Shown here one piece after another: positions 47,798-64,000 of a stretch of DNA of 64,000 nt. The first letter of the stretch is position 1; each line of letters begins with the position of its first letter. The notes under the pieces were generated by a model. The model saw only the letters and a program-made list of their open reading frames with translations. It ran no database searches and was not told the origin of the DNA. Both the position numbers and the translations under genes were made by a program. Source of the stretch: Natronosalvus halobius (GTDB lineage Archaea > Halobacteriota > Halobacteria > Halobacteriales > Natrialbaceae); assembly GCF_024138145.1 (NCBI RefSeq), contig NZ_CP099997.1:2046001-2110000 (forward strand). The letters run 5' to 3'.

Positions 47798-47901
47798 TGG
47801 CGTTCCAGGCCCGAACTGATGGGTGAAACCGATAGCGTTCGTCCGGCTTTACTCGTCAGTCGACGCCTGGAAGGGTAATGGATGGTCGAGCCTGGAGAAG
47901 A

Positions 47902-49706: not shown

Positions 49707-50264
49707 ACAGAATACCCGTTCCCGTTTCCCTACTATAAAGGTTCTGTTTGTGAGCGGCGAATTCGGGCTCGAGCGGCCCGATAGAGCGTCTTTACGCACA
49801 CTACCCACCAGAAAGTATATGTCGAATGAAGTTCCGGGGACCGTCGGACCCCCTCGAATCGGCCCAAACTGCCCTCGAACGCGCTCGCGCGCGCTCTCGA
49901 GACGGCCTACCGCCATCCCGGCTGAAGAACGGCGGCCCCGTTCACGGCGTTCGTGGATGTTGGACGACCTCACTGTGGAGGACGACCTCACCGTGGAGGA
50001 CGACTGCACCGATGGGACCATTCGATCGCGATGGACGTTTCATCTCGTATAACCGCCTGATCTGGTCAGCGATATCACTGAGACGGTTCCGATTCGAACG
50101 ACCGACGAACCGCTCGTAGTACGGGACAGTGGCTATCAGGACTGGGAGAGACTGGCCGAAGGAGAAACTCACTCGTACACGAAGTACCAACGTGAGAAGA
50201 GCCTAGGCCGGGACATATACGAAAGGTTCAATGTCCCACTTATTAAAGATACCCCAATCAACAC
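49707..50264. other. Gap before the integrase, no supported gene
   Basis: Contains the DUF1931 promoter and a GAAAGTATATG segment at 49811. There is an 18-bp repeat of the type CTCACCGTGGAGGACGAC near 49970-50005. A plus-strand reading frame from 50053 encodes sequence that looks protein-like (LVVRDSGYQDWERLAEGETH) and may be the 3-prime remnant of a lost gene. The integrase promoter is near 50240. No tRNA is seen here. Confidence 0.4.
49734..49739 (-). promoter_or_regulatory. TATA box of the DUF1931 gene
   Basis: TATAAA on the plus strand (TTTATA on the minus strand), ~30 nt before ATG 49706, implying a very short leader. Confidence 0.55.
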
Positions 50265-51509
50265 ATGCCGGACATCCGAAAGCAGATCACGAACTTGCAC
50301 GAAAGGATCCAGGAATCTAATGACATCAGTGAGAAAGATAAGGAACTTCTCATTGCGTTCAGCGACGAACTCGACCTCCTCAAATCCAAATATTCTGACC
50401 ATCGTCACAACAAACTCCTCCGCCACTGCACCATCATGGCTGAAGAAGCCGGGGAGCTTACCGCGGCACTCGAGGACGAAGACGCCGCGAAAGATATCGT
50501 CCGCTGGATCAACCGGACGTACGACAACGAGTACACGAATCACGACTACCGAACGGCCCTTCGCGTCTTCGGCAAACGCGTCACCGAAGGCGGAGACTAT
50601 CCATCGAGTATCGAGTGGGTTCCGTCCGGGACCTCGAGCAGCCACGATCCTGTTCCCGACCCGGCAGACATGCTCGAGTGGGAAGCAGATATCATACCGA
50701 TGGTTGACGCAGCGAGAAACTCCCGAGATGCCGCACTCATCACCGTCGCCTTCGACGCGGGGCCTCGAGCGGACGAGCTTCGTAATCTCTCGGTCGGCGA
50801 CGTGAGTGATGGCGAACACGGACTCCGGATCTGGGTCGACGGGAAGACCGGACAGCGCTCGGTCGATCTCATACCCAGTGTACCGTATCTCAAGCGTTGG
50901 CTTAGTGACCATCCAGCACCGGAAGATAGTACAGCGCCACTCTGGTCGAAGCTGAACACCGCTGATGGAATCAGCTATCGGCAGTTCCTGAACTGTTTCA
51001 AAGACGCCGCTAAACGAGCCGGCGTCACCAAATCGGTCACCCCGACCAATTTCAGAAAGTCCAACGCGACCTACCTCGCGCGCAAAAGCATGAATCAGGC
51101 GTTCATCGAGGATCGCCAAGGACGAAAGCGTGGGAGCGACGCCACTGCTCACTACGTCGCTCGCTTCGGAACCGATAGCGAAGCCGAGTACGCCCGACTC
51201 CACGGTCTCGAGGTCGACGAAGAGGAACCCGAGCCGATCGGCCCAGTCGAATGTCCTCGGTGTACCAAGGAAAACCCCCCTCACGAGAGTAAGTGTGTCT
51301 GGTGTGGCCAGGTGCTCGAGTACGATGCGGTCGATTCGATCGAAGAGGCACAACGAGACGTCCGGGACGTTGTCCTCCGTCTTGCTAGTGATGACCCCGA
51401 AATCCTCACTGACTTCCAACGGAACCGTGAGTTGATGGATCTCTTCGAAAGTGATCCCGATCTCTACGAAGAAGCACAGGAGTTCGTCGAGAGTCTGCCC
51501 GACGAATAA
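50265..51509 (+). CDS. Tyrosine recombinase with C-terminal zinc ribbon
   Basis: A 414-aa integrase-family recombinase. An N-terminal SAM-like domain (residues 1-~120) precedes the catalytic domain. Arginine I lies in DAGPRADELRNL, lysine in VDGKTGQRS, arginine II in TPTNFRKSNATY, and the tyrosine in ATAHYVARF. The usual histidine of the HxxR motif is not present (TPTNFRKS instead of HxxFRHS), an unusual change. The last ~90 residues contain a zinc ribbon (VECPRCTKE and CVWCGQVLE) and an acidic tail, the layout of haloarchaeal mobile-element integrases. TTATTAAA ~25 nt upstream gives a leaderless start. Confidence 0.9.
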   Translation: MPDIRKQITNLHERIQESNDISEKDKELLIAFSDELDLLKSKYSDHRHNKLLRHCTIMAEEAGELTAALEDEDAAKDIVRWINRTYDNEYTNHDYRTALRVFGKRVTEGGDYPSSIEWVPSGTSSSHDPVPDPADMLEWEADIIPMVDAARNSRDAALITVAFDAGPRADELRNLSVGDVSDGEHGLRIWVDGKTGQRSVDLIPSVPYLKRWLSDHPAPEDSTAPLWSKLNTADGISYRQFLNCFKDAAKRAGVTKSVTPTNFRKSNATYLARKSMNQAFIEDRQGRKRGSDATAHYVARFGTDSEAEYARLHGLEVDEEEPEPIGPVECPRCTKENPPHESKCVWCGQVLEYDAVDSIEEAQRDVRDVVLRLASDDPEILTDFQRNRELMDLFESDPDLYEEAQEFVESLPDE

Positions 51510-52221: not shown

Positions 52222-52671
52222 ATGAGCGAGGCTCGCCAACTCTTTTGGAAAGAACTCAACAATTCGATTAGACGAAGACCCAATACCCCACTTCGTGAAA
52301 CGACTCGAGCTGATTCAGAGAACGACAACTGGAGACCACAACGTCATTTGACGGATTCGGTTGGCTACAGTTTCAATCTCCCAATGCGAGACAATGAGAT
52401 CATGGTGTACCTCGTAGCCCGAAGAACACGGAATAGGGAAGCTATTTTTGAACATCTCAGTGAATACCAGGAAGAAATTGCGGGGGCATTCGAGGAACCG
52501 TTAGAATGGAGACCGTCTGATGGAATCTACAAGCTCATTCTCAGGCGGAAAGCCGATCTTGAAAATAGAAGAGATGAATGGGAGAATTACTGTGACTGGT
52601 TGATCGATCGGGCCGAAAGGCTCTATTTTGCTACTGGCCCCTACCTCGCCGGTTTCGATGCGAAGAAGTGA
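52222..52671 (+). CDS. DUF4268-like protein
   Basis: A 149-aa protein similar to the DUF4268 C-terminal domain. It has an N-terminal ARQLFWKELNNSI, a beta segment YSFNLPMRDNEIMVYLVARR, then EHLSEYQEEIAGAFEEPLEW and RRKADLENRRDEWENYCDWL. DUF4268 is usually the C-terminal half of larger proteins linked to restriction or phage-defence loci; here it stands alone, so it may be a truncated remnant or a stand-alone form. The AAGGAG site upstream decides the ATG. Confidence 0.72.
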   Translation: MSEARQLFWKELNNSIRRRPNTPLRETTRADSENDNWRPQRHLTDSVGYSFNLPMRDNEIMVYLVARRTRNREAIFEHLSEYQEEIAGAFEEPLEWRPSDGIYKLILRRKADLENRRDEWENYCDWLIDRAERLYFATGPYLAGFDAKK

Positions 52672-53342: not shown

Positions 53343-53573
53343 ATGACCGACCTCGTCTACTACCATCATCCCGACGACGAGTAATATTCACTCGCGTACG
53401 TGACGCTCGACCGCGACGAGATCGACCCCGACGATGGGAAGGTCGAAAGCTACCAACTCGAGGAAACGGTGCATGTCCTCTACACTAACTCCGGGGCGAG
53501 TGGGACAGTCAACGATCCTACCGGAATAGTTCTAAGACCACCCTCTACCCTATACTATCGCCGTGTTGGTTAG
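53343..53573 (+). pseudogene. Broken small gene, in-frame stop at codon 14
   Basis: Starting at ATG 53343, the frame reads MTDLVYYHHPDDE, then TAA at 53382-53384, then YSLAYVTLDRDEIDPDDGKV and onward to TAG at 53571. The downstream part uses GC-rich haloarchaeal codons and acidic residues, so it was once coding. The remnant at ~53123 (TDLIDYIDSGNEMYSLGDVM) matches its start, residue for residue at about half of positions, so the gene was duplicated. The end overlaps the convergent nuclease-like gene by 4 nt. Confidence 0.7.
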
Positions 53574-54427
53574 GCGGGGTTCAGCATCCGATCAAGCATC
53601 TTTCGCCCGTGGCTTTTGTCGGAGTAGAGGGTATCGAAAACCTCTTCGACAGCGATGTAATCTATGCTGTCCTTAGTTTTCGGTTCGTATTCAGCAGGTC
53701 CAAATAACACCAACCGAGCGTTCTCATCAGCGTAATTCCGTAGCCTTTGGATCTTCGATTCCAGTTTATTCGTATCTGACTCTTGGGTTACTTGAGCAAG
53801 AATACGTTCGCTCGCTGTACCGCCGACAATATCCACGTCACGGAGGGTTCGACCGACGGGAAGCGTCGGGAAATACCCCTCAAATTGCACCCGTAGGAAT
53901 TCGTTGCAGGCAACCTCTAACTGCTCAGAGGAAAGTGATCCGACTTCTGCTGGGAGTTGTCCCTCTCGGACTACGGCCCGTACCTGGTCTTCTGCAGCCT
54001 TCCACCGGCAGAGAGAGTGACCTTGTGGGCGCACTGCAGAAAGAACAGGATGGTCTTTAAACGATACAACGTGTATCATCTCATCATCCATCGAGAGGGT
54101 TTTGAATATGCTATCGCCAACGTCTTCCCCAACTGGCTTTGAACCCGGAGGAACGACACCGATCAACATCTCATCTGAGTGAATATCGTAGTCGTTGCCG
54201 TAGTAAGCAGCTATAATAACACCTCTTTCACCGAAATCGTTTAACCGCTGAATTTCACTTTGAGCGGTCGAGTTGTCATAATCCGAGGGGTCGGTACTGT
54301 ATTTTTCACCCCAATGCAAGCCTACCTTCCGTTGGTTCCATAACTTTCTAACGTCCTCTTCAGGTCTTGTTCCGCTAAATTTGTGCCTGAAAAACGCAAC
54401 GTTCAGGTCAGCAATATTGTAACTCAT
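53570..54427 (-). CDS. Hypothetical protein with a PD-(D/E)XK-like core
   Basis: A 285-aa protein I do not recognise as a named family. The N-terminal third has a pattern (KLWNQRKVGLHWG near residue 29) reminiscent of PUA/EVE-like modules. Residues ~165-232 look like a restriction-nuclease core: a helix SSEQLEVACNEFLR, then RDVDIVGG (D197, D199), then a strand RILAQVTQ in which a lysine would be expected, then LRNYADENARLVLFGP. The catalytic lysine is absent (T/Q instead), so it may be inactive or non-canonical. AT-richer codon use suggests recent acquisition. Confidence 0.65.
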   Translation of the reverse strand: MSYNIADLNVAFFRHKFSGTRPEEDVRKLWNQRKVGLHWGEKYSTDPSDYDNSTAQSEIQRLNDFGERGVIIAAYYGNDYDIHSDEMLIGVVPPGSKPVGEDVGDSIFKTLSMDDEMIHVVSFKDHPVLSAVRPQGHSLCRWKAAEDQVRAVVREGQLPAEVGSLSSEQLEVACNEFLRVQFEGYFPTLPVGRTLRDVDIVGGTASERILAQVTQESDTNKLESKIQRLRNYADENARLVLFGPAEYEPKTKDSIDYIAVEEVFDTLYSDKSHGRKMLDRMLNPA

Positions 54428-54654
54428 AGTTACAAATCTGACAGTGGTATATTAAATATATTTGCATTAGCAGAACTGAACATTGGCACGGCTCGGCACA
54501 CTTTGAGCCTCCCTGCAGTAACACGAATGAACTCAGTCTGAATAAGTCAATTCCTGTGCTCAAACACTCACACTATATAGTAGTTATCACAGAATACCTG
54601 GCTACATCGGATATTGGCAAAAACATATATTACCAACATGTACCTTGTCGAAGT

Positions 54655-56085
54655 ATGATTGATCCCGATATTGAGCGCGCACAAATACTCGCCAGACAAG
54701 CGAAACACGAGGCAGTCACAGCGGAACGCTTGACTAAAACTAAAATCGGGATCATACGCTATCGACTACACGACGATCCGGTATACCGGCTCCTTCGGTC
54801 TGATGAACAGCCTCATTTTTTATTCCACTCAAGTCGCCATACACCCGCGTTCAATGGCCCTTCAGCCCCAAAGAAGATTGAGCGATCGCGTCGGTTTCGG
54901 GTGCTTCACCTCATCACTGACTCGAGGTGGGTAATGATCGCTGGAAACCGACGGGGTGATCAGAAACACGAGATCAGACTGGACGAAATCAAAGCCACGA
55001 ACTACGAAACCGGCAATTCGCTTCGATCGAGAATTTCGAGAAACCTGTTTGCTTTGGAAACTGAAGGCGCTCACTACACAATTCCCCTCTCTAATGACTA
55101 TGGGGTAACCGCACTCGAAGAGTTGACCGTCTACCTTCAGGAGACTCATGGGGCGATTGCTGGTGGCGTCGCAGTTGATTCGGATGAAGCAGGGTACACA
55201 ATTGCAGGGAATGATTCGATCGAGTACAGCGAAGCCGATGTCCGCTCGAGGCTCGATCGAGTTCCAGACGCGGCTATGGACGAAGCCAATGAATTACTGG
55301 CAAAAACAAACGACCCCGAGACTCTCGTCCCTCAGTTAAACAGGCTCATCGAACGAGAAGAACAATCGAGTCGATCACTGGACGAGATGGTAAGCGAGGC
55401 GTCATCAGTTGAAGAACTCCGTCGAGAGCTCGAGACACCGGCAGAACGTGCCCAACGGCGAGCAAAAGAGCGGGCCGAAAAAGGGTTTGAACAGGCCCGT
55501 GAGACGTTCAAACAGTCTGACCCGGAAGAAGTCGGGAAATGGGGCGTAAGCGTCGGGCAAGCAGCTCTTCCACTAGCCAGAGTAGCGCCCGGTTCAACAC
55601 CTTTGTGGCTGGCCGCGTATTTCGTTCTTGGTGGTGCTGCTGGCGTTCACGCTAGCGGGAGTAAAGCGTCACCATTAGCTGAGATAGATCCAGAGGCGCT
55701 CGCTGCCCACGTGACCGCGCTAGCACAGGCAGGCAAAGGCCTCGAAAATATCGATGGGGAAGTGACCGGTACGTTACTCGGTGCGTTCACACACCTTGGA
55801 ACCCAGCTTGCCCCCGAGGAATACGCAAAATGGATCGTCGCCGCCGATCCGGAAGCAATTCTCGCAGGAGCCGAAGCAGGTGCAGAATTCGCAATGAGTG
55901 ACGATGTCACCGGTAGTCGAAGACAAGGAGCGGTTGCAGGAGCAGGGCTAGGTGCTCTCGGGAGTTATACTACGAATAGCGATTCAGATGCTTTTCGTGA
56001 GATACTCGATGCAGACCTCTACGAGCAATATCTGAAAGAGATCGCCAGCGAGAACACTCGAGCGCTCGAGACGTCAACAGAATAA
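54655..56085 (+). CDS. PH-like and coiled-coil protein, candidate BREX-adjacent accessory
   Basis: A 476-aa protein. Residues ~40-165 resemble a bacterial PH domain (YRLLRSDEQPHFLFHSSRHT, VLHLITDSRWVMIAGNRRGD, GAHYTIPLSNDYG). A charged helical segment follows at ~240-300 (ELRRELETPAERAQRRAKER). Then there is a Gly/Ala-rich stretch with two possible hydrophobic segments (GSTPLWLAAYFVLGGAAGV and ARRQGAVAGAGLGALGSY-like). It ends 68 nt before the BREX operon on the same strand. The start is ATG 54655. No function assigned. Confidence 0.75.
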   Translation: MIDPDIERAQILARQAKHEAVTAERLTKTKIGIIRYRLHDDPVYRLLRSDEQPHFLFHSSRHTPAFNGPSAPKKIERSRRFRVLHLITDSRWVMIAGNRRGDQKHEIRLDEIKATNYETGNSLRSRISRNLFALETEGAHYTIPLSNDYGVTALEELTVYLQETHGAIAGGVAVDSDEAGYTIAGNDSIEYSEADVRSRLDRVPDAAMDEANELLAKTNDPETLVPQLNRLIEREEQSSRSLDEMVSEASSVEELRRELETPAERAQRRAKERAEKGFEQARETFKQSDPEEVGKWGVSVGQAALPLARVAPGSTPLWLAAYFVLGGAAGVHASGSKASPLAEIDPEALAAHVTALAQAGKGLENIDGEVTGTLLGAFTHLGTQLAPEEYAKWIVAADPEAILAGAEAGAEFAMSDDVTGSRRQGAVAGAGLGALGSYTTNSDSDAFREILDADLYEQYLKEIASENTRALETSTE

Positions 56086-56118
56086 TTAGATCGATACTGT
56101 TCGTGGAACCAAGACACG

Positions 56119-56128
56119 TGAATACTAT
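56119..56128 (+). promoter_or_regulatory. Likely TATA box of the BREX operon
   Basis: AATACTATAG is centred ~30 nt before ATG 56154, the first gene of the brxEABC run. Confidence 0.45.
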
Positions 56129-56153
56129 AGGGACGGTCACCAATCGGTACAGT

Positions 56154-56759
56154 ATGTCAACCGGATCACTCGAGGAAACTCTCACAACTGTTCAAGACGA
56201 GTTAGGATCACTTGGCGTAGAGGATGCGTTAGCGCGTGAAGTGCTCTCGTATCGACTCCTCATCGAACGATTAGGAGAAGATGGCAACAACGACTGGTGG
56301 GATTCTATTGTATTGACCGAAACCGGACGTGACCGGCTCGAAGAGGTAACGCCCAAGACGGCAACGAGGTCTCGTATTGAACTTGCACAGCGCATCGGTC
56401 GAAAGGTGGAGCAAGAGCACGTTCCCGAAGATTCACTTTCTCTCTTCTATCTCGGGCCGACAGCCGAATCACAGATCGACGCCGAGCTCGAGAGCGTAGT
56501 AGATGAAGAGGAGTCCTTCCAGGTACTCGAATCACTCTCGAAGACGATTGAAGAGCCAGGCTGGTCTGAGCGTCTCGCCAGTGACGCTGAACCCGTTTCG
56601 TCGACGACAGACTCGACGATACTGCTCGGCGAGGTTAACGATGAAACAGACCTGAAATCACGAAACACGCTCCGGGACGTTGCCCGTCGGTGTGTACTCG
56701 CGTATGGTCAGTCGACTTCAGCCACCCTCCGAGTGCCCTATTACACCATCGACCGATGA
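56154..56759 (+). CDS. brxE: BrxE-like BREX protein
   Basis: A 201-aa protein. Its first ~120 residues match the BrxE fold: LSYRLLIERLGEDGNNDWWD, the RLLxxLGE...WW signature, then ARSRIELAQRIGRKVEQEH-like and LFYLGPTAESQIDAEL. BrxE is a conserved component of several BREX types with unknown biochemistry. The ATG of brxA begins inside its stop codon, so the two are coupled. It has no catalytic motif that I can identify. Start ATG 56154. Confidence 0.65.
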   Translation: MSTGSLEETLTTVQDELGSLGVEDALAREVLSYRLLIERLGEDGNNDWWDSIVLTETGRDRLEEVTPKTATRSRIELAQRIGRKVEQEHVPEDSLSLFYLGPTAESQIDAELESVVDEEESFQVLESLSKTIEEPGWSERLASDAEPVSSTTDSTILLGEVNDETDLKSRNTLRDVARRCVLAYGQSTSATLRVPYYTIDR

Positions 56760-57550
56760 TGAAACAACCAGTAGATCCGGACGACGTAGAGTACGATTCG
56801 TGGATAGCACACAACACGACGTACATTGAGGAGACAAAGCGCATTCTCGAGGAATATGTTGAGCACGAATCGTTCGATGTTGTCAAAGAACGTGTGATTG
56901 AGAAGAACATTCTGAACAAGGAGACCAACAAGTATCGAAGGCGCGTCTTTCGTGAGATTGCTCGTCGGTATATTCCTCGCGAAGACGAGTACGTCGAAAC
57001 CCCGTTGATGCGTGTACTCGCTTCAGACGTCGACGAGTCCGTCAAAGAGTGGATTCTTTATTACGAGTTTTCCCAGAATAGTCTGATCCATCGTGTGACA
57101 GTCGATTTCCTGTATCAGAAATATACGTCGGGAGCGCTCCTTATTCAAGCACCCGAAATCCGGGCGTACATCACTGAATTAGGGGAAGATCACCCCGAGA
57201 TACAGGACTGGTCGCAGAGTACGCTCGAAGAAGCGAGTACGAAGTATCTGAGTTCTCTTAAGAACTTTGGGCTGTTGAAGGGAGTACAGGAAAAAGAGTT
57301 TGCGGTGTTCTACGTGCCAGACGAAGCGATCGCGTACGTTTGCTATCGACTATACGGAAGCGATGCTGAAACTGTCGACGAGCTCGTTTCACATCCTGAT
57401 TGGCGGCTCTTTCTCTTTGACGAAGACGAGGTGCGACGACGACTGCAAGGAATCAGTCCACGGTACGTCCGATACGAAAAACGAGGCAGCACCGAACGGA
57501 TCGAACCGGTATTCGACGACATTAACGAGGTTATCGATGACTTCGAGTAA
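56756..57550 (+). CDS. brxA: BREX protein BrxA (DUF1819)
   Basis: A 264-aa protein of the BrxA/DUF1819 family, a helical NusB-like fold reported to bind DNA. The N-terminal part is ETKRILEEYVEHESFDVVKE, with VIEKNILNKETNKYRRRVFR following, and toward the end EEASTKYLSSLKNFGLLKGV. It starts at 56756 or, equally, 56759 (double ATG). Its last 14 nt overlap brxB. Part of the core set brxA-brxB-brxC-pglX that defines a BREX system. Confidence 0.88.
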   Translation: MMKQPVDPDDVEYDSWIAHNTTYIEETKRILEEYVEHESFDVVKERVIEKNILNKETNKYRRRVFREIARRYIPREDEYVETPLMRVLASDVDESVKEWILYYEFSQNSLIHRVTVDFLYQKYTSGALLIQAPEIRAYITELGEDHPEIQDWSQSTLEEASTKYLSSLKNFGLLKGVQEKEFAVFYVPDEAIAYVCYRLYGSDAETVDELVSHPDWRLFLFDEDEVRRRLQGISPRYVRYEKRGSTERIEPVFDDINEVIDDFE

Positions 57551-58100
57551 CGTACAATCGCGAATGGAGGAACTCGAGTCGCTTACGATAGACAACCGTG
57601 AACGGATTGGCCGACGGACAGGTGTGCCGTTCATTGTCTTCACGTACGACCCAAAAGATGAGCTCTCCGTCGAAGAGACAATTGATGCATACGTGAAAAA
57701 ACTCCGGAACCGGAGGCAATCAGTCGAGCTCATCGACATGCGCGATCTCGTCTTTTCCCTCCTCGAGGAGGAACGGATCCTCGATGCCGTGATTGAGAAA
57801 GAGCAGGCTGACGAAGGTGAGTTAAGCGAAGGACTCTCTTCTGTTCTTCTTGGCGGTCGAACGGATGAACAGGGACTCATCGCCGAAACGATCAAAAGCC
57901 GAATCGGTGATGTCGAGACCGCGGTCGTGTACCGAACCGGTATCTTGTATCCCTTCGCAGGGATTTCCTCGATTCTCATGCAGCTGGAGAACGAGATCGA
58001 GACGCCGTTCGTGGTATTCTATCCGGCGGTCAAGGATGACAAGAGTTTAAAATTCCTCGACAAAACAGAGGGAGCATACTACCGCGCTCGGGTGATCTAA
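57537..58100 (+). CDS. brxB: BREX protein BrxB (DUF1788)
   Basis: A 187-aa DUF1788 protein. Conserved positions are VPFIVFTYDPKDELSVEETI, LIDMRDLVFSLLEE and, near the end, YRTGILYPFAGISSILMQLE with FVVFYPAVKDD, the last being the P-loop-independent strand region of this family. BrxB works with BrxC and PglZ in phage exclusion. It overlaps brxA by 14 nt and precedes brxC by 1 nt, so all are co-translated. Confidence 0.9.
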   Translation: MTSSNVQSRMEELESLTIDNRERIGRRTGVPFIVFTYDPKDELSVEETIDAYVKKLRNRRQSVELIDMRDLVFSLLEEERILDAVIEKEQADEGELSEGLSSVLLGGRTDEQGLIAETIKSRIGDVETAVVYRTGILYPFAGISSILMQLENEIETPFVVFYPAVKDDKSLKFLDKTEGAYYRARVI

Positions 58101-58101
58101 T

Positions 58102-61100
58102 ATGAGTTCAAACACGATTACGACGATTGAGGACATCTTCTATCGGAAGATCGATCGACACATCAACCGCGTCGTCAAGGTCGAGCAAGACGATACGGAG
58201 ACGGTTAAACAGGAACTCGACGAGTACGTGCTGACCGGCTCTCTCGAGCAACACTATCTGAAGATTCTGGAAGCGATTCGGGAGACGGAACACAATCCAA
58301 CTGACGAGACGGGCGTTTGGATCTCCGGTTTCTTTGGGTCAGGGAAGAGCCACTTCATGAAGATCCTCGGCTACGTACTGGAGGATAAGACCCTTCCAGA
58401 CGGTCGATCGGCGTCAGATGCGTTCAAACCGCGAGCGCAAGACGAGACGCTAAAGGCGACCGTCGACGCCGTGAGCCGAACGTTCGATTCTGAAGTGCTG
58501 ATGTTCCAAATCGGGTCGCGAACGAGCAGGGCCGGGGAAGATTCGATCACCGACGTCATCAACCGCGAGTTCAATCGGAAACGTGGCTACGCAGAACTCC
58601 CGTGGGTCGCTCGACTCGAGGAGGATCTCGAAAACGAAGGGCGATACGAAGCGTTCAAGGAAGCAGTAGAGGCTGAGGACGGTCGAGAGTGGGAAGACGT
58701 TCGTCAAACCGCAGCGTTCGTCGAGCCGAAAATCGAACAGGGGCTTATCGATGCCGTTCCCGGCTTCGACGAACAGGACGCGAAAAATGCGATAACGAAC
58801 GTCAAAGAAGAGCCCGAGATCACTCCTGCTTCGCTGGCGGAACGAATTCTCAATTACGTCGAACAGAAAGAACGGAAGACGGACCAGGACGTGCGCTATT
58901 TCGTCTTTCTCGACGAAATTTCGCAGTTCATCGGCGACGACGAACAGATGCTCCTCGAGTTACAGAGCATCGCCGAAGAGTTCGGCCAGCAGGGTATGGG
59001 TAAACTGTGGCTCGGCGTCACGTCACAGGAGAAACTCGAGGAACTCGTTCCAGGTGTCCTCGCAAAAAACCTCGAGGAATCAAAGGTCGGGGACCGATTC
59101 CCACACCAAACTGACCTAATCTCCGACAACCTCGAGGACGTCGTCCGCGATCGAATTCTACAGAAGAAGGGAGAGGCAATCCCGTCGATCGAGTCGTTGT
59201 ACGACGAGAACGAGGGAAGGTTGAGTGCCAGGTACAAACTCCATTCGTCCCGTCAGATGGAGTCCATCGAGGAGGAATCCTTCGTAGAATGCTACCCGTT
59301 TCTGCCATATCAGCTAGAGATCCTCCCTCAGATCTTCGCCGCTCTTCGAGGAAGAGGGTCAGACGATCGGTTAACGGGACGAGAACGAACACTCATCGAC
59401 GTTACACAGAGCGTTTTCAACGAACCACACAACCTGCGAGATCGAGAGCTGGGTTCGCTCGCTACGCTCGATCTGGTGTACGAAGAGATCGTCGAGGACA
59501 TCGACGATGACGATCAGCGGACGATCGCCAACGCGGCCCCACAGGAAGTCGACGAGGAATTAGCACGTCGAGTACTGAAATCACTCTACCTGCTCCAGCG
59601 GCTCGACTGGATTCCGAATACGGCAGCGAACGTCGCGACGACACTATACGACGAAATCGGCGACATGAGTGCCCTCGAGAGTCAGATCGAGGAGGTACTC
59701 GAGCAGCTAGTCGAGGAGGGGTACGTCGGCCGAAGCGAGGAGGGGTATCGGTTCCTGCAAGAATCCGAACGAAAACTCGAAGACGAAATCGCCTCGGTCA
59801 ACGTAAACGAAGGCGAAATCCGCCGTCGATCAAAAGCGTTCGTCCGCGAGAGCCTGGACAACGCCGATACGGTTCGGTACCGAGAACAGGCGTTTTCCCT
59901 CTCGATTGAGGCTGATGGTGAGCAACTTTCGGACAAAGGGTACATTCATCTCCATGCGTACTCGCCCGTTCATCAGCAGTACGAGGAGGTCGATCCGCGG
60001 ACACTGAAGACCCAGAGTTTCGACCAGGGGGACACGATTTACTGGATCGCCGACGACAGCGATGCAGACGACATCAAGAGTCGAATCAAGCGCATTACCC
60101 AGATCGAGCAGATCGTTTCCGAGAAACGAGGCCAGCAAACCAGTGCCGAAGAGCAGGAAGCACTCGACCAGAAGAAGGAAGATCTCACACGGATGCGTCG
60201 AAGCGTCGAGCGAGACATTGATGCCGGTTTCCAGACGGGGACGCTGATCTATCACGGCACCGAGACGAATCTGGAGGAGTCTGGCACGCGACTTGATCGA
60301 ATCGTCCAGGATCCGGCTCGAGACGCGGTTGAACGTGTCTTCACCAAACTCGATGACGGGTTAGGAAGCGTAAGCAACCGGAATATCGAAGCTCTATTCG
60401 GTGATATCGAAGGGCGGTCGAACCCGGCAGTGTTCAAAGAACTGAATATCGTCATCAACGGCGAATTGAATCCGGAAGCTCGGATCGCAAGTGAGGTGGC
60501 CGACGAGATCGACGCTCGAGAGAAAACCGGTGACGTACCCACCGGGAAAGCGCTGATCGAACATTTCGAGGAACCACCGTATGGATGGAGTCGCGACGTG
60601 GTCAGGCTCGCGGCTGCCGTGCTGTTCCGGAACGGTTCGATCATGGCGATCTACAAGGAGCAAACGTTCGACAGTTACGTCGACGACGGTGCACAGGAGG
60701 TGTTCACACAGATTTCGAAGTTCCGGGATGCCTCCTTCAAGGAACGTGAGACGGTCGACCCCGAAGTTCGAAACGAAGCGAAACAGACCCTGGACATCCT
60801 GTTCGATAAAAAGGTCAAACAAACCGATCAAGAAGTCGCACAGGGGATTTCGGAGGTCTCGAGTGAGTGGATTGAGAAGTGCAAAGAGCGGCAGACGAAA
60901 CTCGACGACGCCTTCTTCCCGCTCCGCGATGAAGCAAAGCGGCTCGTTACCATACTCGAAGGGATCCGCGGTAAAGGTACGTCTGCCGCAAAGATCAACG
61001 CGTTCCTCGAGCACAAGGACGAACTGGAAGATCTAGTCGATACGGTGAAGAAAATCGTCCAGTTCGACCAGTCTGGCAAACTCGAGAAGTACGCCATCTA

Positions 61101-61722
61101 TCGTGAGTTCCTCGAAAACGAGTGGGAAGAGTTCAAAACGCTCGAACAGACGTCGTCGTTCGTCGAGATTAGCGACGACGTCCACGAGGCAGCTAGGCAA
61201 CTCGAGGGTGAGATCGATTCGACGGCGATCATGGAGAACTGGTCGAACGTCGAGACGGATTATCACACGATCGCTAACGCCTACGCTCGAACGTACGAGG
61301 ATCTCTACACGAAACGGTACGAGTTGTACTCCCGTGCAGCCGACGACGTCCGTGCTCTGGGTGCTGACCTCGACAACGACGACCTGGAGACCGCGGTCGA
61401 GCCGTTGACGAGCCGGATGGGGAATGCATCGATTTCCATCGATGTCGATGGACGTTCGCACCTGAACCTCAATCCGAGTCTCAAACAGTTGAGTGAGTAC
61501 CTCCAGACCGTCGACTCTTATCGCCGGACGGCTCGGGATCTCGTCGATAAACTTCGACCAGAAGACGAGAACGTCACCCACCACCGTGTCGAACTCGAGG
61601 AATTCTTTGGTGGGGTCGTCGTGAGTGAGGAATCCGACCTCGATGCGCCAATTGACCGGCTTCGGACGGAAGTGCTCGAATTACTCGAGGAGGAAGGAGA
61701 GGTCGAGGTACACTTCGAGTAA
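58102..61722 (+). CDS. brxC: BREX P-loop ATPase BrxC
   Basis: A 1206-aa ATPase, the usual BrxC/PglY size. Walker A is ISGFFGSGKSHFMKILGYVL (GSGKSH at residues ~79-84) and the Walker B-like motif is RYFVFLDEISQFIGDDEQML (~266-285). The N-terminus begins ITTIEDIFYRKIDRHINRVV, typical for BrxC. The remaining ~900 residues are helical and include long coiled-coil regions. It is essential in characterised BREX systems and probably couples ATP hydrolysis to phage-DNA sensing or blocking. It ends 130 nt before an unrecognised gene. Confidence 0.95.
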   Translation: MSSNTITTIEDIFYRKIDRHINRVVKVEQDDTETVKQELDEYVLTGSLEQHYLKILEAIRETEHNPTDETGVWISGFFGSGKSHFMKILGYVLEDKTLPDGRSASDAFKPRAQDETLKATVDAVSRTFDSEVLMFQIGSRTSRAGEDSITDVINREFNRKRGYAELPWVARLEEDLENEGRYEAFKEAVEAEDGREWEDVRQTAAFVEPKIEQGLIDAVPGFDEQDAKNAITNVKEEPEITPASLAERILNYVEQKERKTDQDVRYFVFLDEISQFIGDDEQMLLELQSIAEEFGQQGMGKLWLGVTSQEKLEELVPGVLAKNLEESKVGDRFPHQTDLISDNLEDVVRDRILQKKGEAIPSIESLYDENEGRLSARYKLHSSRQMESIEEESFVECYPFLPYQLEILPQIFAALRGRGSDDRLTGRERTLIDVTQSVFNEPHNLRDRELGSLATLDLVYEEIVEDIDDDDQRTIANAAPQEVDEELARRVLKSLYLLQRLDWIPNTAANVATTLYDEIGDMSALESQIEEVLEQLVEEGYVGRSEEGYRFLQESERKLEDEIASVNVNEGEIRRRSKAFVRESLDNADTVRYREQAFSLSIEADGEQLSDKGYIHLHAYSPVHQQYEEVDPRTLKTQSFDQGDTIYWIADDSDADDIKSRIKRITQIEQIVSEKRGQQTSAEEQEALDQKKEDLTRMRRSVERDIDAGFQTGTLIYHGTETNLEESGTRLDRIVQDPARDAVERVFTKLDDGLGSVSNRNIEALFGDIEGRSNPAVFKELNIVINGELNPEARIASEVADEIDAREKTGDVPTGKALIEHFEEPPYGWSRDVVRLAAAVLFRNGSIMAIYKEQTFDSYVDDGAQEVFTQISKFRDASFKERETVDPEVRNEAKQTLDILFDKKVKQTDQEVAQGISEVSSEWIEKCKERQTKLDDAFFPLRDEAKRLVTILEGIRGKGTSAAKINAFLEHKDELEDLVDTVKKIVQFDQSGKLEKYAIYREFLENEWEEFKTLEQTSSFVEISDDVHEAARQLEGEIDSTAIMENWSNVETDYHTIANAYARTYEDLYTKRYELYSRAADDVRALGADLDNDDLETAVEPLTSRMGNASISIDVDGRSHLNLNPSLKQLSEYLQTVDSYRRTARDLVDKLRPEDENVTHHRVELEEFFGGVVVSEESDLDAPIDRLRTEVLELLEEEGEVEVHFE

Positions 61723-61852
61723 TTAGAGTCCATTGTACGTTCTTCATTTCAGATTGTGTGTACCACTGTCGTCTTTCCGGCAGAGATTATGTGACGAATT
61801 TGAGGGTGTGGATGTATAGGTTTAATTCAACAAGAGATACAACTCCAATCTC

Positions 61853-62569
61853 ATGGTCGACGAGATCCCGGAGGAATTACGAAGTGATATCGAATCTTTC
61901 TTCGAAGAGTATGATCCATCGTTAAAAGATTTGATCTTTCTTCAGGTTGAAGTGCTTATTGAAGAAGCAGAGGACGAGTTTTTGGAAGAATGGGAAAAAT
62001 CCGACGAGGAGGCTAATATATACAGCAAACCGTATGAATCTGATGGCGCGATGATCTGGCGGCTTACCGAACAGATAGGGATTGACGCCGATTTTGTGAC
62101 CTGGTGGTTGGCAGCTATCTCCTTCAACGACGACGGCGGGCCTTTCTACTTGGTTCATGAACGATCTGACCAAATCAGGCTGAGCGGCGTTAAACTCGAG
62201 GATTTACCGAGGCTTGCGGAGGGCTTTCAGGCCGTTGAAAAGCATTGGTTAGAGGAAAGAGACCAACAGAAAGTAGAGGAAACCCGGCAAGAAGGAACGT
62301 CCCTTCCAGCAGTATCTGAGATCCCACCAGCAAAATTCACAGATGACGATTGGGAGTGGATTTTGGATTCCAAAGCAGCGAAAAGTGGGGGAGATACGTT
62401 AGCGATTAGGCGAGCCCCAGTACTCGATCAAGGTTCGCTCAGCACCTATGTTCTTGAACGGCGAAACGCTTCCAAAGATGACAGTTCAATTCCGATCGGG
62501 GCATTTTGGGGCCATCACGGTGGATTCTTTCAGAGCGCCATCGAAGAGGCATATGATCGGTTAATATAA
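61853..62569 (+). CDS. Unrecognised 238-aa gene inside the BREX locus
   Basis: An acidic cytoplasmic protein inserted between brxC and pglX. Residues 1-~60 are helical and strongly negative (EAEDEFLEEWEKSDEEANIY). A central segment FVTWWLAAISFNDDGGPFYL with LVHERSDQIRLSGV follows, then EGFQAVEKHWLEERDQQKVE. The C-terminus is IPIGAFWGHHGGFFQSAIEE. No signal peptide, membrane helix, nuclease or kinase motif is evident. Codon use is AT-richer than the BREX genes around it. Standard BREX operons do not have a gene here, so this may be an added accessory or cargo gene. Confidence 0.85.
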   Translation: MVDEIPEELRSDIESFFEEYDPSLKDLIFLQVEVLIEEAEDEFLEEWEKSDEEANIYSKPYESDGAMIWRLTEQIGIDADFVTWWLAAISFNDDGGPFYLVHERSDQIRLSGVKLEDLPRLAEGFQAVEKHWLEERDQQKVEETRQEGTSLPAVSEIPPAKFTDDDWEWILDSKAAKSGGDTLAIRRAPVLDQGSLSTYVLERRNASKDDSSIPIGAFWGHHGGFFQSAIEEAYDRLI

Positions 62570-62698
62570 TTTTGTATCCGGCAAGGTAGATAGTCAGGTC
62601 GGCGAAACACTAGATTGATACGGATGCTGTCTGTGTTAGGTATCATACTGTGTCGGGGATGACACCATCGTTCCCGAACCAACGGACATACATCTACT

Positions 62699-64000
62699 AT
62701 GGCAGCTACGACCCATCAGAACGGCCTCAGTGCGGACGATCGATCAGACATTCGAAGTACCATCCTGAGCGCGCGATCGACACTCGAGGAGGAGTTCGAA
62801 CGCCAACTCGAGCGCTACGGCATTTACGACGACGATCGTGTGCCGGTGAATTCGCTCTCACACCTCTCAGTGGAAGATATCGCGACCCGAAAGGAGATTG
62901 ACGCGGCGTTAGAACGCGAACTCGAGGCAACTGACGGACTCTACGGCCGAGCCTACCAGAACTACATCCGCGAGGCGACCAAGGAGTATCTCAACCGCTT
63001 CGTGGGGATGAAGACGATCGAGGCGCGGGAGCTGGTCACCGAAACCCTCCGTAGGCGACCGGAGTACGGTGGACGGTCGTACATGCACTACACCGTCGAC
63101 GAGATTGCAGGGGAGTTGACTGACGCAACCGACGACGGCCTCGGGGCTGCTCTGGATCTTGCCTACCAGGAGATCGGCTCGGAGATCCGAGTGTTATTCG
63201 ATGGCTCCGACTACACAGCCCTCGAGCCGGATTTCGCGATTCGACGGGAGATTCTTGAGGAACTCGACAAGCTCGGTGATGACGTATGGCAGTCAGACGA
63301 GGCGATGGGCTGGGTGTATCAGTTTTTCGGAGAGAACGAACGAGAGGAGATCGACCAGCGGATCAACGATGAGAACTACAAAGTGCAAGATACGGACGTA
63401 GCGACGAAGACCCAGTTGTTCACGCCGCGCTACATCGTCGAGTGGATGGTTGACAACTCGCTGGGACGATTGTGGCTCGAGATGCACGGCGACAAGACGA
63501 ATATTGACGACGAAGACAAGTGCTTCCACCTCGCGCCGCTCGAAAAGTCGTTGATCGACCGCGACGTGAAAGACGTGCGTGAGATCAAGGTGCTGGATCC
63601 AGCGTGTGGCAGCGGTCACATGCTGTTCTATGCTTTTGACGTATTATACGAGATGTATCTCGAGCAGAGTGATATCCCTGAAAGCCACATCCCGCGGGAG
63701 ATTTTGAAGCAAAATCTCTATGGGGTCGACATTGATGAAGGGGCGGCCCAGATCGCAGCCCTAGCTCTGTACGTGAAGGCGAAGAGCCACGCACCGGAGG
63801 TAGCTATCGAAGGGATGAATATCGTCTCGGCAAACGCGGTGCTCATTAACGGCGATAAGAAACGGCAAGTACTCGAAAGAGCGGATTCGGAACTCGAACG
63901 ACGTGTCCTCGAGCAGGTCTGGGCGAGTTTTGAACATATTCGCGAGTGGGGGAGTCTTGTCCGGATCGAGGAGCAGATCGAAGCGATCATCGAAGAAGAA
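62699..64000 (+). CDS. pglX: BREX adenine-specific DNA methyltransferase PglX (3-prime end missing)
   Basis: Partial, 434 aa to the window edge; the whole protein is normally ~1200 aa. It starts at ATG 62699, the first ATG after the in-frame stop at 62660. The N-terminal part (EEEFERQLERYGIYDDDRVP) is followed by a conserved helical region. The SAM-binding motif I is VLDPACGSGHMLFYAFDVLY (D300), followed by QNLYGVDIDEGAAQIAALAL. These are the PglX/type II N6-adenine methyltransferase signatures. The NPPY catalytic motif lies beyond the window. In BREX, PglX methylates host DNA at asymmetric sites so the host is spared, and is required for phage exclusion. Confidence 0.95.
   Translation, partial: MAATTHQNGLSADDRSDIRSTILSARSTLEEEFERQLERYGIYDDDRVPVNSLSHLSVEDIATRKEIDAALERELEATDGLYGRAYQNYIREATKEYLNRFVGMKTIEARELVTETLRRRPEYGGRSYMHYTVDEIAGELTDATDDGLGAALDLAYQEIGSEIRVLFDGSDYTALEPDFAIRREILEELDKLGDDVWQSDEAMGWVYQFFGENEREEIDQRINDENYKVQDTDVATKTQLFTPRYIVEWMVDNSLGRLWLEMHGDKTNIDDEDKCFHLAPLEKSLIDRDVKDVREIKVLDPACGSGHMLFYAFDVLYEMYLEQSDIPESHIPREILKQNLYGVDIDEGAAQIAALALYVKAKSHAPEVAIEGMNIVSANAVLINGDKKRQVLERADSELERRVLEQVWASFEHIREWGSLVRIEEQIEAIIEEE

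Follow-up and report, generated by a model that had tools for sequence, protein, structure and literature searches.

A 64,000-nucleotide stretch of the Natronosalvus halobius genome (the window, G000:C1:2046001-2110000) and the DNA to its right very probably hold a complete haloarchaeal-form type 1 BREX locus that includes brxE, encloses a putative type IV restriction gene of GmrSD-like kind, and sits on an integrative island in tRNA-Thr. We favor this reading because the six type 1 core genes and brxE lie in order and open, because their motifs are kept as in 19 relatives and their order recurs in nearly all haloarchaeal loci fetched, and because a sister species carries a closely similar core on a plasmid.

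An earlier note on the window had recognized brxE-like, brxA, brxB, brxC and pglX genes in that order and suggested that the window edge cuts the locus. Curated models matched all five genes, and the remaining genes were found to the right, in DNA designated L002. Extended coordinates there are the L002 position plus 61499, and those above 64000 lie outside the window. Read past the edge, the order is brxE-brxA-brxB-brxC-(orf238)-pglX-(orf310, GmrSD-like gene)-pglZ-brxL.

56154..56759, + strand: brxE, 201 aa (NCBIfam NF033447, 122 bits); possible in-frame GTG start upstream at 56103
56756..57550, + strand: brxA (Pfam BrxA 66.5 bits, cut-off 23); ATG at 56759 is a possible alternative start
57564..58100, + strand: brxB (Pfam BrxB 54.2 bits, cut-off 26.8); ATG upstream at 57540 is an alternative start
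58102..61722, + strand: brxC, 1206 aa (NCBIfam BrxC 840 bits, cut-off 400)
61853..62569, + strand: orf238, 238 aa, an orphan protein; the slot-1 insert separating brxC from pglX
62699-66412 (to L002:4913; window part 62699..64000), + strand: pglX, 1237 aa (NCBIfam BREX-1 PglX 722 bits)
66495-67427 (L002:4996-5928), + strand: orf310, outside the window
67801-69615 (L002:6302-8116), - strand: GmrSD/BrxU-like gene, outside the window
69808-72246 (L002:8309-10747), + strand: pglZ, outside the window; the PglZ domain passes Pfam
72243-74270 (L002:10744-12771), + strand: brxL, outside the window (NCBIfam BrxL 907 bits, cut-off 628)

The brxA and brxB starts are those of the annotated sister copy. 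pglZ, which the earlier note had wanted to see within ~20 kb, starts 3.4 kb beyond the end of pglX. Neither orf238, for which our search returned no convincing homologue, nor the island starting at 50200 is mentioned in the earlier note. The tight coupling previously described for the first four genes was borne out: brxE overlaps brxA by 4 nt, brxA and brxB are 13 nt apart, and brxB and brxC 1 nt apart, and given these gaps translational coupling of the four genes is likely. pglZ likewise overlaps brxL by 4 nt, and all core genes are open, with no frameshift or internal stop.

BrxC has a P-loop, GFFGSGKS, and a Walker B-like VFLDEI, and PglX has DPACGSGH within the window and NPPY (residue 520) past its edge. 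The GSGKSH of BrxC and the DPACGSGH of PglX pointed out from the letters alone are therefore both present, and so is the catalytic NPPY whose absence would have suggested decay. The BrxC P-loop, both PglX motifs, the PglZ motifs and the BrxL P-loop are intact, as in 19 relatives. The best curated model for PglZ is type A, with a score of 191 bits where 270 are required; because of this score, we class its sequence as divergent. We found no support for retained Lon protease activity in the Lon-like domain of BrxL: at the position of S580, which lines up with the catalytic serine of Lon, most relatives have Ala or Glu. This lack of a conserved in-register serine agrees with the published view of BrxL as a non-protease (PMC10164562). 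BrxE is mainly helical and acidic, its predicted pI being 4.3, and a conserved block runs from WW(D/E)S to EVxPKT. A BrxE structure predicted from 19 sequences for a fold search had a mean pLDDT of 55, and we set this model aside as too poor. The GmrSD-like gene product matches GmrSD_N above cut-off (106.9 bits) and GmrSD_C below it (14.6 bits, cut-off 23); DGQQR- and DHHIFP-like motifs, sought as marks of DUF262 and DUF1524/HNH domains, lie at 88 and 495.

A 26.05 kb island, flanked by a 14-bp direct repeat and inserted at the 3' end of tRNA-Thr(GGT), contains the locus. Apart from the BREX genes, the island has the following features.

50200..50213: left island end, the 14-bp repeat AGCCTAGGCCGGGA, an exact copy of the tRNA-Thr 3' end
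50265..51509, + strand: tyrosine integrase (Phage_integrase 53.8 bits), starting 51 bp inside the island end
52222-52671: DUF4268 gene; PADLOC candidate-defence family PDC-S11 also matched, at 52 bits, over the C-terminal part only
53570-54427, - strand: 285-aa gene; no Pfam or PADLOC family matched
54556-56085: orf509, 509 aa, directly upstream of brxE
74533-76158 (L002:13034-14659), - strand: DUF7845 gene, outside the window, between brxL and tRNA-Thr
76237-76308 (L002:14738-14809), - strand: tRNA-Thr(GGT), with the right repeat copy, outside the window

When the tRNA and its flanks were scanned as 12-mers against 81 kb, no other second copy turned up. GC content is about 52% between the repeats, compared with about 66% for the chromosome. 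The congener G277 matches the left flank at 97% identity as far as about 49905, has the tRNA within about 1.7 kb of that point, and lacks this island. We regard the island as integrative because of the repeat, the integrase, the GC step and this island-free site; an integrase, a repeat at a tRNA 3' end and a relative's site without the island are the features by which tRNA-targeting integrative elements are recognized. In a second congener, G175, the same tRNA-Thr holds a different ~30.6 kb element between its own repeats (G175:C1:175471-206100; L093, L094), the left end being marked by a 46-bp tRNA repeat, and the site is therefore an integration hot spot. The BREX locus rides on the island as cargo, with which it would be mobile, and offers an example of a defense system carried by a tRNA-targeting element. 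We considered orf509 as a further BREX gene and instead treat it as cargo because it also occurs in genomes where BrxE and BrxL were not found; a 70% identical copy lies upstream of BREX in G120. Left of the island, at 47800-47880, is a ~78-bp dispersed repeat with ten or so genomic copies that are 78-89% identical.

The same BREX core is present on a plasmid of the sister species Natronosalvus caseinilyticus (NZ_CP100395.1, 230191 bp), at 93-94% DNA identity (93.8% over 56095-61720 and 93.2% over 69716-74254). The match begins just upstream of brxE, stops at the end of brxL, and is interrupted at slot 1 (brxC-pglX), within pglX at 64377-65762, and at slot 2 (pglX-pglZ). Identity between the two PglX proteins is 82-100% in residues 1-500 and 88-100% in residues 1051-1237, falling to 18-68% in between. 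Thus, the N. caseinilyticus system differs from ours in being on a plasmid, in having different genes in both slots, and in a divergent PglX middle (target-recognition) region. With core identity broken at the slots and the PglX middle, the pattern is one of modular exchange, in which the target-recognition region and accessory genes appear to be swapped around a stable core. This closely related pair, one on a chromosomal island and the other on a sister plasmid, allows direct comparison of BREX specificity and accessory genes.

Two other explanations of the locus deserve weighing. An operon led by a BrxE family gene could belong to type 6, and a haloarchaeal host had hinted at type 5; a recent survey ranks both as type 1 subtypes and states that BrxE is exclusive to type 6 (PMC12839542). 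The choice among types 1, 5 and 6, previously left to the genes on the right, can now be made from them. Type 5 has a second brxC, and brxHII in place of brxL, whereas we found one brxC with brxL present, so the hint from the host does not hold. Type 6 combines brxE with brxD and brxHI, of which the locus shares only membership of the BrxE family: its BrxE scores 122 bits with the family model (cut-off 40) and 50 with the BREX-6 equivalog (cut-off 80). PglX reaches 722 bits with the BREX-1 model (NF033452, cut-off 500), compared with 375 for BREX-5 and 452 for BREX-6, both of which have a cut-off of 900. No second brxC, brxD, brxHI, brxHII or other helicase was found among the scanned island ORFs. 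Because brxL and a BREX-1-class PglX occur without these genes, and all six type 1 core genes (brxA, brxB, brxC, pglX, pglZ, brxL) are in one locus, we assign it from gene content to type 1 with brxE, and consider types 5 and 6 highly improbable.

The locus might instead be decayed or silent, hitch-hiking on the island, as its location and the divergence of PglZ from curated models would allow; the latter also weighs against a complete type 1 system. However, the core genes are free of frameshifts and internal stops, unlike the relative L071, in which brxC and pglX are each split into two ORFs; the catalytic motifs are kept; and between the sister species the core is far better conserved than the slots. 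We therefore think decay unlikely. Conserved genes alone do not establish activity in the N. halobius strain, and the locus is best described as intact-looking. (L071 is one of two BREX copies ~298 kb apart on the 363-kb contig G367:C3, the other being near 324902; the copy we read is the one with split genes.)

Placed among its relatives, this type 1 locus with brxE is ordinary. We detected BrxE in 26 and BrxL in 23 of 391 haloarchaeal genomes. None of the 23 lacked BrxE, which therefore seems to be a constant gene of type 1 BREX in haloarchaea. The order brxE-brxA-brxB-brxC-pglX-pglZ-brxL was present in 19 of 20 haloarchaeal loci fetched, counting L071 and also L073, where brxE lies just beyond the fetched stretch yet is listed in the BrxE genome scan; the twentieth, L072, shows neither pglZ nor brxL in the part that was read. 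Wherever both genes could be measured, brxE was tightly coupled to brxA. Our BrxE contig scan returned haloarchaea only, its patterns being drawn from haloarchaeal sequences and hence uninformative on bacteria. In loci of this kind the NCBI pipeline already annotates brxE as 'BrxE family protein', and the papers we found do not discuss its association with BrxL; the system is of a known kind, with a haloarchaeal gene content unstated in the papers searched. The statement that BrxE is exclusive to type 6 is thus qualified, as haloarchaeal BrxE accompanies BrxL. Four relatives also have a calcineurin-like phosphoesterase gene divergent from brxE (L060:15965-17290, L062:18049-19404, L063:17069-18349, L064:543-1865; identified by Pfam on L060, the others being 67-85% identical), which is absent from the N. 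halobius locus.

The slots vary in size across loci (0.1-1.2 kb for brxC-pglX, 0-3.5 kb for pglX-pglZ) and in gene content, and in relatives their genes include GmrSD, SMC/AAA ATPase, Mrr-type nuclease and TATA-binding proteins (TBPs). Seven TBP genes occupy slots in 6 of the 20 relatives.

L058:6366-6905: slot TBP gene
L065:10668-11216: slot TBP gene
L064:11605-12285: slot TBP gene
L069:6130-6774: slot TBP gene
L071:11487-12026: slot TBP gene, assigned because its product is 88% identical to that of L058
L074:6060-6608: slot TBP gene
L074:10620-11168: slot TBP gene

With an estimated 5 or so TBP genes in a 3.6 Mb genome, chance alone would place about 0.06 in the gaps, which total 43 kb. Our tree does not support one BREX-specific clade of slot TBPs, since it needs 4 changes; these TBPs appear to come from several separate recruitments. 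TBPs are known from two conflict systems, TOTE and TALON, and we found no published link between TBPs and BREX in the literature searched. We tentatively suggest, as an idea somewhat more doubtful than not, that haloarchaeal type 1 is a seven-gene form with obligate BrxE whose slots repeatedly recruit TBPs as dedicated controllers or sensors. The N. halobius locus has no TBP gene, and its slot 2 holds a winged-helix membrane protein.

By analogy with characterized type 1 systems, PglX, with BrxA, BrxB, BrxC and PglZ, would place N6-methyladenine at a non-palindromic site in host DNA, and incoming DNA without this mark would be stopped, with PglZ and BrxL acting in restriction. PglZ may be a metal-dependent nuclease, as it is in bacterial type 1 systems, and BrxL may form a DNA-loading AAA+ ring. 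The tight coupling of their genes suggests that BrxE, encoded first in the operon, most likely acts jointly with BrxA. The GmrSD-like protein may deal with virus DNA whose cytosines are modified, the role that BrxU has in E. fergusonii.

Compared with the type 1 systems of B. cereus, E. coli, Acinetobacter and Salmonella StySA, the N. halobius locus shares the order brxA-brxB-brxC-pglX-pglZ-brxL and a BREX-1 PglX, and its full-length BrxL aligns with the Acinetobacter BrxL structure 8EMC at 723 bits. It differs in having brxE where those systems have a leading WYL regulator gene, and in its divergent PglZ; BrxC shares only about 28% identity with the copies on enterobacterial plasmids. As in type 6, a BrxE family gene precedes brxA, although type 6 has brxD/brxHI where this locus has brxL, and the BrxE here does not reach the cut-off of the BREX-6 equivalog. 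Nucleases as accessory genes of BREX loci have been described (PMC12839542; BrxU, PMC8565348), and the pEFER BREX of E. fergusonii (PMC8565348) likewise embeds a GmrSD-family gene in a type 1 locus; its BrxU lies between brxC and pglX, whereas the GmrSD-like gene of N. halobius lies between pglX and pglZ, on the opposite strand.
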